Source of the DNA: Haemophilus parainfluenzae | Lineage (GTDB): Bacteria; Pseudomonadota; Gammaproteobacteria; Enterobacterales; Pasteurellaceae | Length of the DNA: 64,000 nucleotides | Assembly (NCBI RefSeq): GCF_900450995.1 | Contig: NZ_UGHY01000002.1 | Coordinates: 570,501 to 634,500, forward strand | Direction of reading: 5' to 3' | Part shown: positions 41,774 to 45,593 of the stretch, in pieces | Position numbering within the stretch: the first letter of the stretch is position 1 | Layout of the letters: each line of letters starts with the position of its first letter | The notes under the pieces: generated by a model | The model's database searches: none | Told to the model about the DNA's origin: nothing | What the model saw: the letters and a program-made list of their open reading frames with translations, nothing else | Program-made: the position numbers and the translations under genes

Positions 41774-42064
41774 TTATTCCACAATAGCCAAAATATCGTT
41801 TTCAGAAATGATTAACATTTCTTCACCATCAATTTTTTCACTTTTCACGCCATAACCATCATTGAAAATGACTGTATCACCCACTTTTACATCTAAAGGT
41901 TGAACGGTGCCATTTTCCAAAATACGACCCTTACCCACTGCCAATACTTTCGCACGGGTGGATTTAGTCGCTGCTGAGCCAGTTAATACGATACCGCCAG
42001 CTGAACGAGTTTCTACTTCTTCACGTTTAATGATTACACGATCGTGTAAAGGACGAATATTCAT
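41774..42064 (-). CDS. groES: Co-chaperonin GroES
   Basis: A 96-residue subunit of the heptameric lid of Gro[22 protein letters not shown] and the mobile loop [15 protein letters not shown] are intact. First gene of the groESL operon, with AAGGAAA upstream and a heat-shock-like promoter. Confidence 0.98.
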
Positions 42065-42102
42065 GATTAATTTCCTTCTTAAAAATTAGTTAACGCATTC
42101 CC

Positions 42103-42135
42103 TATATAAGGAGGATTTTTATGATTTCAAGGGGG
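42103..42135 (-). promoter_or_regulatory. Heat-shock (sigma-32-like) promoter of groESL
   Basis: On the minus strand CCCCCTTGAAA (42125-42135) is followed, 13 bases after CTTGAA, by TCCTTAT, resembling sigma-32 elements (CTTGAA / CCCCATNT). TTGAAA and TATATA with a 16-base gap could also serve sigma-70. No CIRCE element is seen. Confidence 0.65.
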
Positions 42136-42233
42136 ATTATTAAAAAAATCTAATAAAATATTTTTCCTATTCTGTCGTTTTTTACGTAAAATTCTGCCCG
42201 TCTTGCATAATAAACAAAAAAAGGAATAACGAT

Positions 42234-42536
42234 ATGCACTTAACTTCCAGAGAACAAGAAAAACTCATGCTTTTCCTCGCGGGCGAACTTGCAGCAAAAC
42301 GCAAAGCACGTGGCGTTAAATTAAATTATCCAGAAAGTATTGCCTATATTGCGAGCCATTTACAAGAGGCGGCCAGAGATGGAATGAGTGTGGCGGAGGT
42401 AATGCAATATGGAGCAACCCTACTCACCGTTGAAGATGTGATGGAAGGCGTTGCTGAGATGGTACACGAAGTACAAATTGAAGCTACTTTCCCTGATGGC
42501 ACGAAGCTTGTTACCGTGCATAATCCAATCAGATAA
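42234..42536 (+). CDS. ureA: Urease subunit gamma
   Basis: A 100-residue gamma subunit of nickel urease, which splits urea to ammonia and CO2. [20 protein letters not shown] and NYPESIAYI are typical. First gene of the urease operon, divergent from groES, with AAAAGGAA upstream. A palindromic repeat array begins two bases after its stop codon. Confidence 0.96.
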
Positions 42537-42538
42537 CC

Positions 42539-42632
42539 GTAGGGTGGGCTTTAGCCCACCAAATAAAAATATCAATGGTGGGCTTTAGCCCACCAAATAA
42601 AAATATCAATGGTGGGCTAAAGCCCACCCTAC
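42539..42632. repeat. REP-like palindrome array between ureA and ureB
   Basis: Three palindromic units with core GGTGGGCTTTAGCCCACC at 42539-42560, 42577-42594 and 42611-42632, separated by two identical 16-base spacers (AAATAAAAATATCAAT), a 34-base period. The third unit is inverted (CTAAAG core), and the outer ends GTAGG / CCTAC also match, so the whole array is flanked by 22-base inverted repeats. This is the form of REP/BIME elements. Confidence 0.9.
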
Positions 42633-42645
42633 AAGGAACCAAGAT

Positions 42646-42951
42646 ATGATCCCAGGCGAATACCAATTAGCCGAAGGCGATATTCTCGCTAATGTCGGCA
42701 GAAAAACCATAAAAATCGAAGTAACCAATTCAGGCGACCGTCCAATCCAAGTCGGTTCCCATTACCATTTCTTTGAAACCAATAATGCTCTTAAATTTGA
42801 CCGCACTTTAGCGCGTGGAATGCGCTTAAATGTTCCATCTGGCAATGCAGTACGTTTTGAACCCGGTGAAGTGAAATCAGTCGAATTAGTCGCTTTTGGT
42901 GGTTCGCAAACTATTTACGGCTTACATAATCAAATTGATAGCAAATTATAA
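42646..42951 (+). CDS. ureB: Urease subunit beta
   Basis: A 101-residue beta subunit, starting [20 protein letters not shown] with the conserved [11 protein letters not shown] near residue 36 and [25 protein letters not shown], directly after the repeat array, is its ribosome site. 11 bases before ureC. Confidence 0.96.
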
Positions 42952-42962
42952 GGTAGGGCAAG

Positions 42963-44681
42963 ATGGCATTAACAATTTCAAGAGCTCAATATGTAGCAAC
43001 TTATGGCCCAACCGTTGGCGATAAAGTCCGTTTAGGCGATACCAATTTATGGGCAACCATTGAACAAGATTTATTAACCAAAGGTGATGAGTGTAAATTT
43101 GGTGGCGGTAAAAGCGTGCGTGATGGCATGGCACAAAGCGGCACTGCAACTCGCGACAATCCGAATGTATTGGATTTTGTGATTACCAACGTGATGATCA
43201 TTGATGCTAAATTAGGCATTATCAAAGCAGATATTGGTATTCGCGATGGTCGTATTGTCGGCATCGGACAAGCAGGTAATCCTGACACTATGGATAACGT
43301 CACGCCAAATATGATTATCGGTGCTAGCACGGAAGTACATAATGGCGCACATTTAATTGCGACTGCAGGCGGTATTGATACCCACATTCACTTTATTTGT
43401 CCGCAACAAGCACAACATGCGATTGAAAGCGGTGTTACCACGTTAATTGGTGGCGGAACAGGCCCTGCTGACGGCACACACGCGACAACTTGTACACCGG
43501 GCGCATGGTATATGGAACGTATGTTCCAAGCGGCAGAAGCTTTACCTGTTAACGTAGGATTTTTCGGTAAAGGAAACTGCTCAACTTTAGATCCGCTACG
43601 TGAACAAATTGAAGCGGGCGCATTAGGTTTAAAAATCCATGAAGACTGGGGTGCAACACCAGCAGTGATTGATTCTGCATTAACCGTCGCTGATGAAATG
43701 GATGTCCAAGTGGCTATTCACACCGATACGCTTAACGAAAGTGGCTTTTTAGAAGATACCATGAAAGCGATCAATGGGCGTGTTATTCACACGTTCCATA
43801 CGGAAGGTGCGGGCGGTGGCCATGCGCCTGATATTATCAATGCGGCAATGTATTCCAATGTATTGCCTGCTTCAACTAACCCAACTCGTCCGTTTACGAA
43901 AAACACCATTGATGAACATTTGGATATGTTGATGGTTTGCCATCACTTAGATAAACGCGTGCCGGAAGACGTAGCTTTTGCCGATAGCCGTATCCGCCCT
44001 GAAACCATTGCAGCAGAAGATATTTTGCATGATATGGGCGTCTTCTCGATTATGAGTTCAGACTCTCAAGCGATGGGACGTATTGGCGAAGTGGTGATTC
44101 GCACATGGCAAACCGCAGATAAAATGAAAATGCAACGTGGTGAGTTAGGCAATGAAGGAAACGATAACTTCCGCATTAAACGCTACATTGCGAAATACAC
44201 TATCAACCCAGCAATTGCACACGGTATTGCGGAGCATATTGGTTCGTTAGAAGTGGGTAAAATTGCGGATATCGTGTTATGGAAACCAATGTTCTTTGGC
44301 GTAAAACCAGAAGTAGTAATTAAAAAAGGTTTTATTAGCTATGCGAAAATGGGCGATCCAAATGCCTCTATTCCAACACCGCAACCTGTATTCTACCGTC
44401 CAATGTACGGTACACAAGGTTTAGCAACGGCACAAACTGCCGTATTCTTCGTTTCACAAGCGGCTGAAAAAGCGGATATTCGTGCAAAATTCGGTTTACA
44501 CAAAGAAACCATTGCCGTGAAGGGCTGCCGCAGCGTGGGTAAAAAAGATCTCGTTCACAACAATGCTACGCCTGAAATTACAGTGGATCCAGAACGCTAT
44601 GAAGTGCGTGTAGATGGGGAGCTTATCACTTGTGAACCCGTGGATACGGTGCCATTAGGACAACGATATTTTATGTTCTAA
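42963..44681 (+). CDS. ureC: Urease subunit alpha (catalytic)
   Basis: A 572-residue catalytic subunit with the dinickel site: HIH in GGIDTHIHF near residue 136, the carbamylated lysine in [10 protein letters not shown] near 219, H in AIHTDTLNE and [12 protein letters not shown], and D in [10 protein letters not shown]. The active-site flap cysteine/histidine segment [20 protein letters not shown] is intact. AGGG precedes the ATG. Confidence 0.98.
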
Positions 44682-44718: not shown

Positions 44719-45339
44719 ATGAAACTTTGGTACTCTACTACCAGCCCGTATGTACGTAAAGTGCTGGTAACGTTGAAATATCAACAACTCTTAGACAAAA
44801 CAGAACTGATTAAAATTGGTTCATCATTTGATGCAAGCTCTCCGCATAATCAGGCGAATCCTCTGGGTAGAGTGCCTGCGTTAGAACGTAATTGTGGTAA
44901 TTGGCTTTATGGCAGTTTGCTCATTTGCGAATATCTCGACCAAAAAGGCAAGGTAGAGCCTAAACTCATTCCAGAAAGTGGCAAGCCACGTTGGGCAGCG
45001 TTAGCGTTGCATAATTTAGCCGATGGCATTATGGAAAACACCGTGCCGATGATGGCTGAAAAAATGCTTCGCCCTGAAAGTGAATGGTGGACAGCTCGCC
45101 ATCAACAACTAACTGAACGCAATCGTCAAAGTTTTGCAAGACTTGAGCAAGACTTAAAACCATTTGGCACGGAATTAAACATTGGTACGTTAACGGCTGT
45201 TGCAGTCATTGATTGGTTCTTGTTTAGAGCAGAAAAAATTGGATTAGAGCTTGCAAAAGAATTTCCAAATTTAACCGCTTGGGCGGCAGAGATGAATGAA
45301 AAATATGAGGTTTTAAGAGAAACAAAGCCAACTTTGTAA
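44719..45339 (+). CDS. Glutathione S-transferase family protein
   Basis: A 206-residue GST: thioredoxin-like N-domain starting MKLWYSTTSPYVRKVLVTLK (a Ser/Thr-rich active-site start, S..SPY-R), with NPLGRVPAL and a C-terminal helical domain. It resembles YibF-type GSTs. It lies between ureC and ureE on the same strand with AAGGAG upstream, which is not a usual urease gene; a role in nickel or thiol handling would be speculation. Confidence 0.85.
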   Translation: MKLWYSTTSPYVRKVLVTLKYQQLLDKTELIKIGSSFDASSPHNQANPLGRVPALERNCGNWLYGSLLICEYLDQKGKVEPKLIPESGKPRWAALALHNLADGIMENTVPMMAEKMLRPESEWWTARHQQLTERNRQSFARLEQDLKPFGTELNIGTLTAVAVIDWFLFRAEKIGLELAKEFPNLTAWAAEMNEKYEVLRETKPTL

Positions 45340-45397: not shown

Positions 45398-45559
45398 TGC
45401 CAAATCTCCCTATCCCTCTTTGCTAAAGAGGGGGAAAGAATGAGCGAGGGTTTATATCATTGTTCTACTTTGATATGGCAAATATAAATGAGTCAGATGA
45501 CAGAAAATTTATAAGGAAAATCCCCTCTTTAGCAAAGAGAGGTAGGGGGAGATTTGGCA
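45398..45559. repeat. Paired inverted palindromes between GST gene and ureE (BIME-like)
   Basis: The left arm (45398-45434) and right arm (45522-45559) are inverted copies of TGCCAAATCTCCCTA plus a C/G hairpin (CCCTCTTT-GCT-AAAGAGGG). Each arm also folds on its own. The 87-base centre shows no gene. This family is unrelated in sequence to the array at 42539. It fills most of the 254-base gap. Confidence 0.8.
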
Positions 45560-45593
45560 GCCTTAATTAGAGAAGAAAATAAGTAATACAAAA

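Follow-up and report, generated by a model that had tools for sequence, protein, structure and literature searches.

What are the palindromes that separate ureA from ureB in Haemophilus parainfluenzae, how did they come to lie there, and does the urease operon depend on them? The array in question occupies positions 42539-42632 of the window, the 64,000-nt stretch of contig NZ_UGHY01000002.1 that was analysed here. The preceding gene, ureA (42234..42536, + strand), encodes the 100-aa urease gamma subunit (Pfam Urease_gamma, 157.1 bits) and ends with a TAA codon at 42534-42536, which is followed by CC and then by the GTAG that opens the array at 42539. The array is composed of a REP, a headless core and an inverted REP. 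REP 1 (42539..42560, + strand) combines a GTAG head (42539-42542) with an 18-nt palindrome (42543-42560) of two 8-bp arms around a 2-nt centre, which starts 6 nt past the ureA stop. The second core (42577..42594, + strand) has the same sequence as the first, lacks the GTAG head and shows 3 mismatches to the 22-mer of head and palindrome. The third copy (42611..42632, - strand) is inverted, with the head facing outward (CTAC at 42629-42632). The array directly abuts, at its 3' end, an AAGGA motif (42633..42637, + strand), the likely ribosome-binding site of the next gene, ureB (42646..42951, + strand; urease beta subunit, 101 aa; Pfam Urease_beta, 145 bits), and all three 18-nt palindromes lie within the 109-nt gap between the two genes. 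The geometry given in the initial annotation was verified throughout: the core starts at 42543, 42577 and 42611 follow a strict 34-nt period, the two 16-nt spacers (42561..42576 and 42595..42610, both + strand) are identical, each AAATAAAAATATCAAT, the array begins two bases past the stop codon, and the outer 22 bases (42539-42560 and 42611-42632) are perfect inverted copies of each other, heads included.

The identification of the array as a low-copy, GTAG-tagged REP/BIME is sound. Its outer copies have the GT(A/G)G head and, behind it, the GC-rich palindrome with a short centre that characterize REPs, and the window contains three matches to the 22-mer when up to 3 mismatches are allowed, compared to 0.00 on average in 100 shuffles. 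Across the whole genome, the 18-nt core at up to 3 mismatches yielded 10 forward and 12 reverse matches, compared to 0 for the reversed-pattern control. The exact 16-nt core is present in 10 copies at 5 places (again 0 for the control), namely three in the urease operon, two between zwf and pgl (gene names that are our reading of the sequence), two near 1.020 Mb, and one and two on the respective sides of a transposase gene. The latter is the single PF01797 gene found in this genome and lies on the same contig as the array; it is an open frame, and the REPs that flank it on both sides match the array family. Its product is a REP-associated tyrosine transposase (RAYT) according to NCBIfam NF047646 (176.6 bits, cut-off 80) and matches the structure of Escherichia coli TnpA-REP (4er8) with E = 1.4e-40. 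The inverted pairing typical of BIMEs recurs at the other loci of this genome, with one member degenerate on one side of the RAYT gene. Thus, the initial suggestion that the array is a BIME-like unit is borne out: the core does occur elsewhere, and the same genome encodes a cognate RAYT whose gene has these REPs on either side. A target-site duplication, such as a MITE of a DDE transposon would leave, was not seen by eye in the 12-nt flanks of four REP pairs or arrays of this genome.

This kind of REP and RAYT is already known, and the array is a further member of it. In H. influenzae Rd, two REP variants with 6 and 5 exact copies and a BIME-associated RAYT were described by Nunvar 2010 (PMC2817692). 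Table 1 of that paper lists for strain KW20 the RAYT NP_438385 and the REP GTAGGGTGGGCTT(c/t)AGCCCACC, the same as in the array, and the two systems are further alike in the inverted REPs that flank the RAYT gene, in the low copy number and in the BIME association; however, the table row gives no insertion sites, whereas here a three-core array is found among the urease genes of a different genus-level group. The GTAG repeats of Di Nocera 2013 (PMC3733652) resemble the array in their GTAG tag, conserved spacers, mostly head-to-head dimeric arrangement and occurrence as trimers, but those trimers are described as a singleton beside a dimer, unlike the duplicated core and spacer seen here; in the text of that paper, a term search found no mention of Haemophilus or Pasteurellaceae. 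The E. coli REP/BIME system shares the homologous enzyme, the GTAG head and the mostly intergenic location, but has another palindrome and, in K12, about six hundred REPs (PMC8266576), compared to the 10 exact cores here. No published report of REPs in the ureA-ureB gap was found in the open-licence literature. What is new here is the existence of two-core relatives together with the apparent duplication that gave a third copy, the mosaic tract that contains the array, and the finding that the ureA-ureB gap is not special (see below for all three).

Four of the 11 genus genomes contain the 16-nt core (10 copies in G000, 2 in G003, 8 in G008 and 14 in G010). PF01797 was found in three of these 11 (G000, G008 and G010), the same three that have at least 8 cores; of the eight genomes without it, one has 2 cores and seven have none. 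In the broader set of 140 family genomes, the GTAG 22-mer is present in 33, and the reversed control gave 0 throughout. According to counts that were compiled by hand and are not corrected for kinship, the 22-mer is present in all seven genomes whose RAYT reaches 97% identity or more (median 8), compared to 26 of the 133 others; at a RAYT identity of 50% or more, 15 of 22 genomes have it, compared to 18 of the 118 without such a RAYT. Against a strict link between RAYT and REP, 7 of those 22 genomes lack the 22-mer, and seven genomes without a RAYT at that level have 5 to 20 copies of it.

Close species differ by gain and loss of REP copies. As judged by eye, the sister genome G006 and also G001, G005 and G007 lack, at the matching site, the pair found near 1.020 Mb. 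No clean insertion point was found there: the bases beside the repeat-free sites of these four genomes differ, and there is no target duplication. The right flank in G002, G003, G004, G009 and G010 is unlike that of the genome studied here, and for G008 only the REPs and a single stretch of 72 bases gave a match. Judged by eye, G003, G006 and G010 have a decayed version of the zwf-pgl pair, which is unrecognisable in the other seven genomes. In the genome studied here, this pair (L009:559-627; C2:960558-960626 of the genome) retains both 16-nt cores intact; of the three genomes with the decayed pair, G010 has a PF01797 gene, and none was found in the other two, G003 and G006.

The ureA-ureB gap was then compared across the family. 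The ureB gene was detected in 51 of the 140 genomes, and 50 ureA-ureB gaps, including the one under study, could be read (the gap of G078 is at a contig edge); the lengths of individual urease gaps given here are approximate, as start codons were chosen automatically and the ureF and ureG queries do not begin at the start codon. Beyond the Pasteurellaceae, a pattern-based parse could read 23 of 70 loci (L036-L105), and these do not enter the counts. REPs of the array family are present in seven of the 50 gaps: three cores in the genome studied here and nowhere else, and two cores in 6 of the 49 other gaps, those of G010, G018 (A. ureae), G072, G073, G074 and G075. All seven carriers have the same left junction, the six two-core versions have a common 17-nt spacer, and G018 and G075, which belong to different genera, have in common one base change in the inverted REP. 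Other gaps lack the repeat, such as those of G071, G076 and G077 (22 nt) and of G006 in the same genus (51 nt). The number of cores therefore varies between species, each represented by one genome, from 0 to 2 or 3. The outcome that the initial annotation had named as evidence against its proposal, the same array in every relative with no variation in copy number, is thus not seen at the level of species. Neither a clean empty site nor a target duplication was found at the urease locus, where the repeat-free alleles differ in the flanking bases, too.

The array is predicted to be strongly structured at the RNA level. The segment 42500-42680 folds at -73.2 kcal/mol, compared to -40.0 (sd 4.2) in 200 shuffles (z = -7.9). 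Folded alone, the three-core array forms a single long hairpin, the tip of which carries the middle core as a small hairpin of its own; the predicted energies are -63.6 kcal/mol for three cores, -46.9 for two and -13.0 for a single REP. In a search of Rfam, eight matches with E up to 1 were obtained (seven microRNA hairpin models and one snoRNA), all below the gathering score, and a structured-RNA family was accordingly rejected. The possibility that the hairpin occludes the ribosome-binding site of ureB was considered as well: both G residues of AAGGA are predicted to be paired, in the allele without the repeat as in that with it, and no difference is claimed.

These folds bear on the proposal that the array is a selected intercistronic control element, in which the hairpin would set the ratio of UreA to UreBC and the copy number would tune it. 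For this proposal speak the position of the stem, 6 nt from the stop codon, the deepening of the fold from two to three cores, and the unrelated palindromes that many relatives have at this position: in 24 of the 50 ureA-ureB gaps, there is a perfect stem of 7 bp or more. Those palindromes, sorted by eye, include the CCCCTCTTT...AAAGAGGGG type, which was a repeat in every one of 19 genomes searched (between 5 and 39 forward matches per genome, at up to 1 mismatch), the CTCTCCCTC type and several other GTAG types. However, the ureA-ureB gap measures only 9-25 nt in 11 of the 50 genomes, and the 51-nt gap of G006 is almost devoid of structure (-1.7 kcal/mol). Furthermore, perfect stems of this size are present in other gaps of the operon, in 34 of the 46 ureG-ureH gaps and, among gaps shorter than 600 nt, in 16 of 48 between ureF and ureG (one longer gap was not scored) and 12 of 24 between ureC and ureE (26 were longer and not scored). 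The ureB-ureC (0 of 51) and ureE-ureF (0 of 50) gaps, which remain short, alone are spared, which fits translational coupling at these two junctions. A special role of ureA-ureB as a palindrome hotspot is therefore rejected, and the importance attached in the initial annotation to a position between these two genes is weakened. The location next to the stop codon calls for no selection, as any insert between a stop codon and a ribosome-binding site sits near the stop. On balance, we consider a selected control element unlikely.

Other features of the urease operon were observed in the course of this comparison. A glutathione S-transferase-like gene (44719-45339 of the window) lies within the operon, between ureC and ureE, and the ureC-ureE gap measures at least 600 nt in 26 of the 50 genomes read, including this one. 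The 254-nt gap preceding ureE (fold, -88.2 kcal/mol) harbours, at 45405-45560, two copies of the CCCCTCTTT..AAAGAGGGG palindrome within a long inverted repeat; this palindrome is a separate genome-wide repeat, with 21 forward matches in the genome studied here.

As for the origin of the array, evidence comes from its flanks. Along the start of the urease locus, up to the ureA start codon, the genome is 97-100% identical to that of the sister species G006. In the first 100 bases of ureA, the identity to G006 is 79%, compared to 91-97% to G072-G075. Informative sites alternate accordingly: 23 of 23 at 42101-42230 are G006-like, 19 of 20 at 42239-42383 are G072-G074-like, 14 of 15 at 42413-42506 are again G006-like, and 16 of 16 at 42521-42744, two of them in the gap flank where the alignment is less sure, match G072-G074 and not G006; beyond 42753, the sites are mixed. 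The tract that includes the array thus extends at most over 246 bp (42507..42752) and resembles Haemophilus of another genus, not the sister species. Two published H. influenzae ureA primers match the genome perfectly and have 3 mismatches each to G006. In the ureA tree, the gene is placed beside the rows of its own genus (97/91), a position that can be compatible with a mosaic gene; the trees of ureA, ureB and ureC contain many weak forks. Taken together, the mosaic pattern indicates that the array probably arrived by homologous recombination; on the simplest reading, short tracts, the array among them, were imported, presumably with a member of the G072-G075 group as the donor. Alternatively, the sister species, and not the genome studied here, could have been overwritten, but G004 contrasts with the latter in a similar way.

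The initial annotation implied that a RAYT had placed the urease copy. In its strongest form, this proposal holds that the resident RAYT recently transposed a REP pair into the gap and that the third copy was made by the enzyme. Both the cognate open-frame RAYT gene with its matching flanking REPs and the lack of the 1.020 Mb pair at the matching site in close species are in agreement with such activity, but the left junction at the urease locus is common to six other genomes, with nearly the same spacer, and the flanks are mosaic. The middle copy, moreover, has no GTAG, a motif that is either required or important when the TnpA-REP enzymes examined in PMC8266576 cleave their substrate. The third core looks like the result of a 34-bp tandem duplication, given the headless middle core: the segment 42543..42610 (+ strand) consists of two 34-nt units of core and spacer, where the six other carriers have one unit with a 17-nt spacer. 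A plain tandem duplication fits the third core better than transposition. Placement of the urease copy by the RAYT in this lineage is thus unsupported, with the mosaic pattern pointing to homologous import and the extra core to duplication, and we regard recent transposition as quite improbable.

An intrinsic transcription terminator or attenuator after ureA, finally, is rejected as very improbable: the stem is very stable, but no GC stem with a T-run was predicted within 42000-43000 on the + strand, that is, in the ureA-to-ureB direction, the two predicted sites in this interval (shuffle mean 1.0) being on the - strand, and ureA-ureH form one transcript in H. influenzae 11P6H, as reported from RT-PCR with a listed primer pair across ureA-ureB (PMC3166929). 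The two - strand sites, at 42576-42628, arise from the stems of the REPs together with the T-rich strand opposite the spacers.

The account that we favor, and consider likely as a whole, thus involves a REP/BIME that entered once, was transferred by recombination, was duplicated locally and has a modest effect. The RAYT (TnpA-REP) encoded on the same contig would make and spread the REP family, with this movement suggested by work on other species. A REP pair would have arrived a single time in the ureA-ureB gap, in an ancestral urease allele of the Haemophilus type, considering that the position, left junction and spacer are the same in three genera. It would then have passed between species within short tracts of homologous recombination, in a direction that we infer; the bacteria concerned are naturally competent. 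In the genome studied here, slippage or recombination would have duplicated one core with its spacer, resulting in three cores.

Intercistronic REPs protect against mRNA decay in E. coli, and an mRNA role of the array is plausible. The transcribed array would form a very stable hairpin from 6 nt past the ureA stop to just before the likely ureB ribosome-binding site, with transcription most likely continuing through it. The most likely effect would be modest, namely slower 3'-to-5' decay of the ureA part, slower ribosomes at the ureA stop, or both, as for E. coli REPs. In E. coli, translation can be reduced by REPs that lie less than 16 nt past a stop codon (Liang 2015, as cited in PMC12306157); with its stem 6 nt and its GTAG 2 nt past the ureA stop, the array lies within this distance, but the short distance here may follow from the geometry of the gap alone. 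Given that relatives exist without any hairpin between ureA and ureB, the urease operon appears mainly to tolerate the array rather than to require it. A more far-reaching reading, which we find doubtful, is that urease operons of Pasteurellaceae use interchangeable mobile palindromes as intercistronic hairpins: unrelated families would fill permissive gaps, natural transformation would swap the palindromes between species together with short gene ends, a change in copy number from 2 to 3 would adjust UreA against UreBC, and translational coupling would keep ureB-ureC and ureE-ureF tight.

The locus suggests that REP elements can enter new genomes as passengers of short recombination tracts and expand locally once there. 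The presence of the cognate RAYT in some species and its lack in close relatives provide the setting for such transfer of REPs. Because the same well-defined operon has 0, 2 or 3 cores in existing isolates, these would offer a natural test of whether protein ratios are altered by intercistronic REPs.

The RAYT gene itself adjoins hsdS of a type I restriction-modification locus in all seven genomes with a close RAYT, which represent four genus groups (stretches L011:2-3499, corresponding to C2:2141001-2144498 of the genome studied here, L213, L215, L218, L219, L220 and L221). Further on, hsdR follows in six of the seven stretches (that of G028 ends earlier), and hsdM precedes in six of the seven (not in that of G075). 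Across these stretches, the RAYT proteins are 98-99% identical and the HsdM ends 89-94%. The first HsdS ORF is 42-52% identical in five and, in G075, comprises only 61 residues (77%), and the second is 49-92% identical over varying parts. Between RAYT and hsdR, this genome encodes a gene that we take to be rhuM-like (L011:243-1241), with partial matches in G008, G028 and G070 (L215, L220 and L221); in G010, G018 and G075, the stretches examined showed no such gene. REP pairs are present between hsdM and hsdS in all five other genomes in which that junction is covered, and because REPs thus lie on both sides of the variable hsdS, they could serve as recombination borders.
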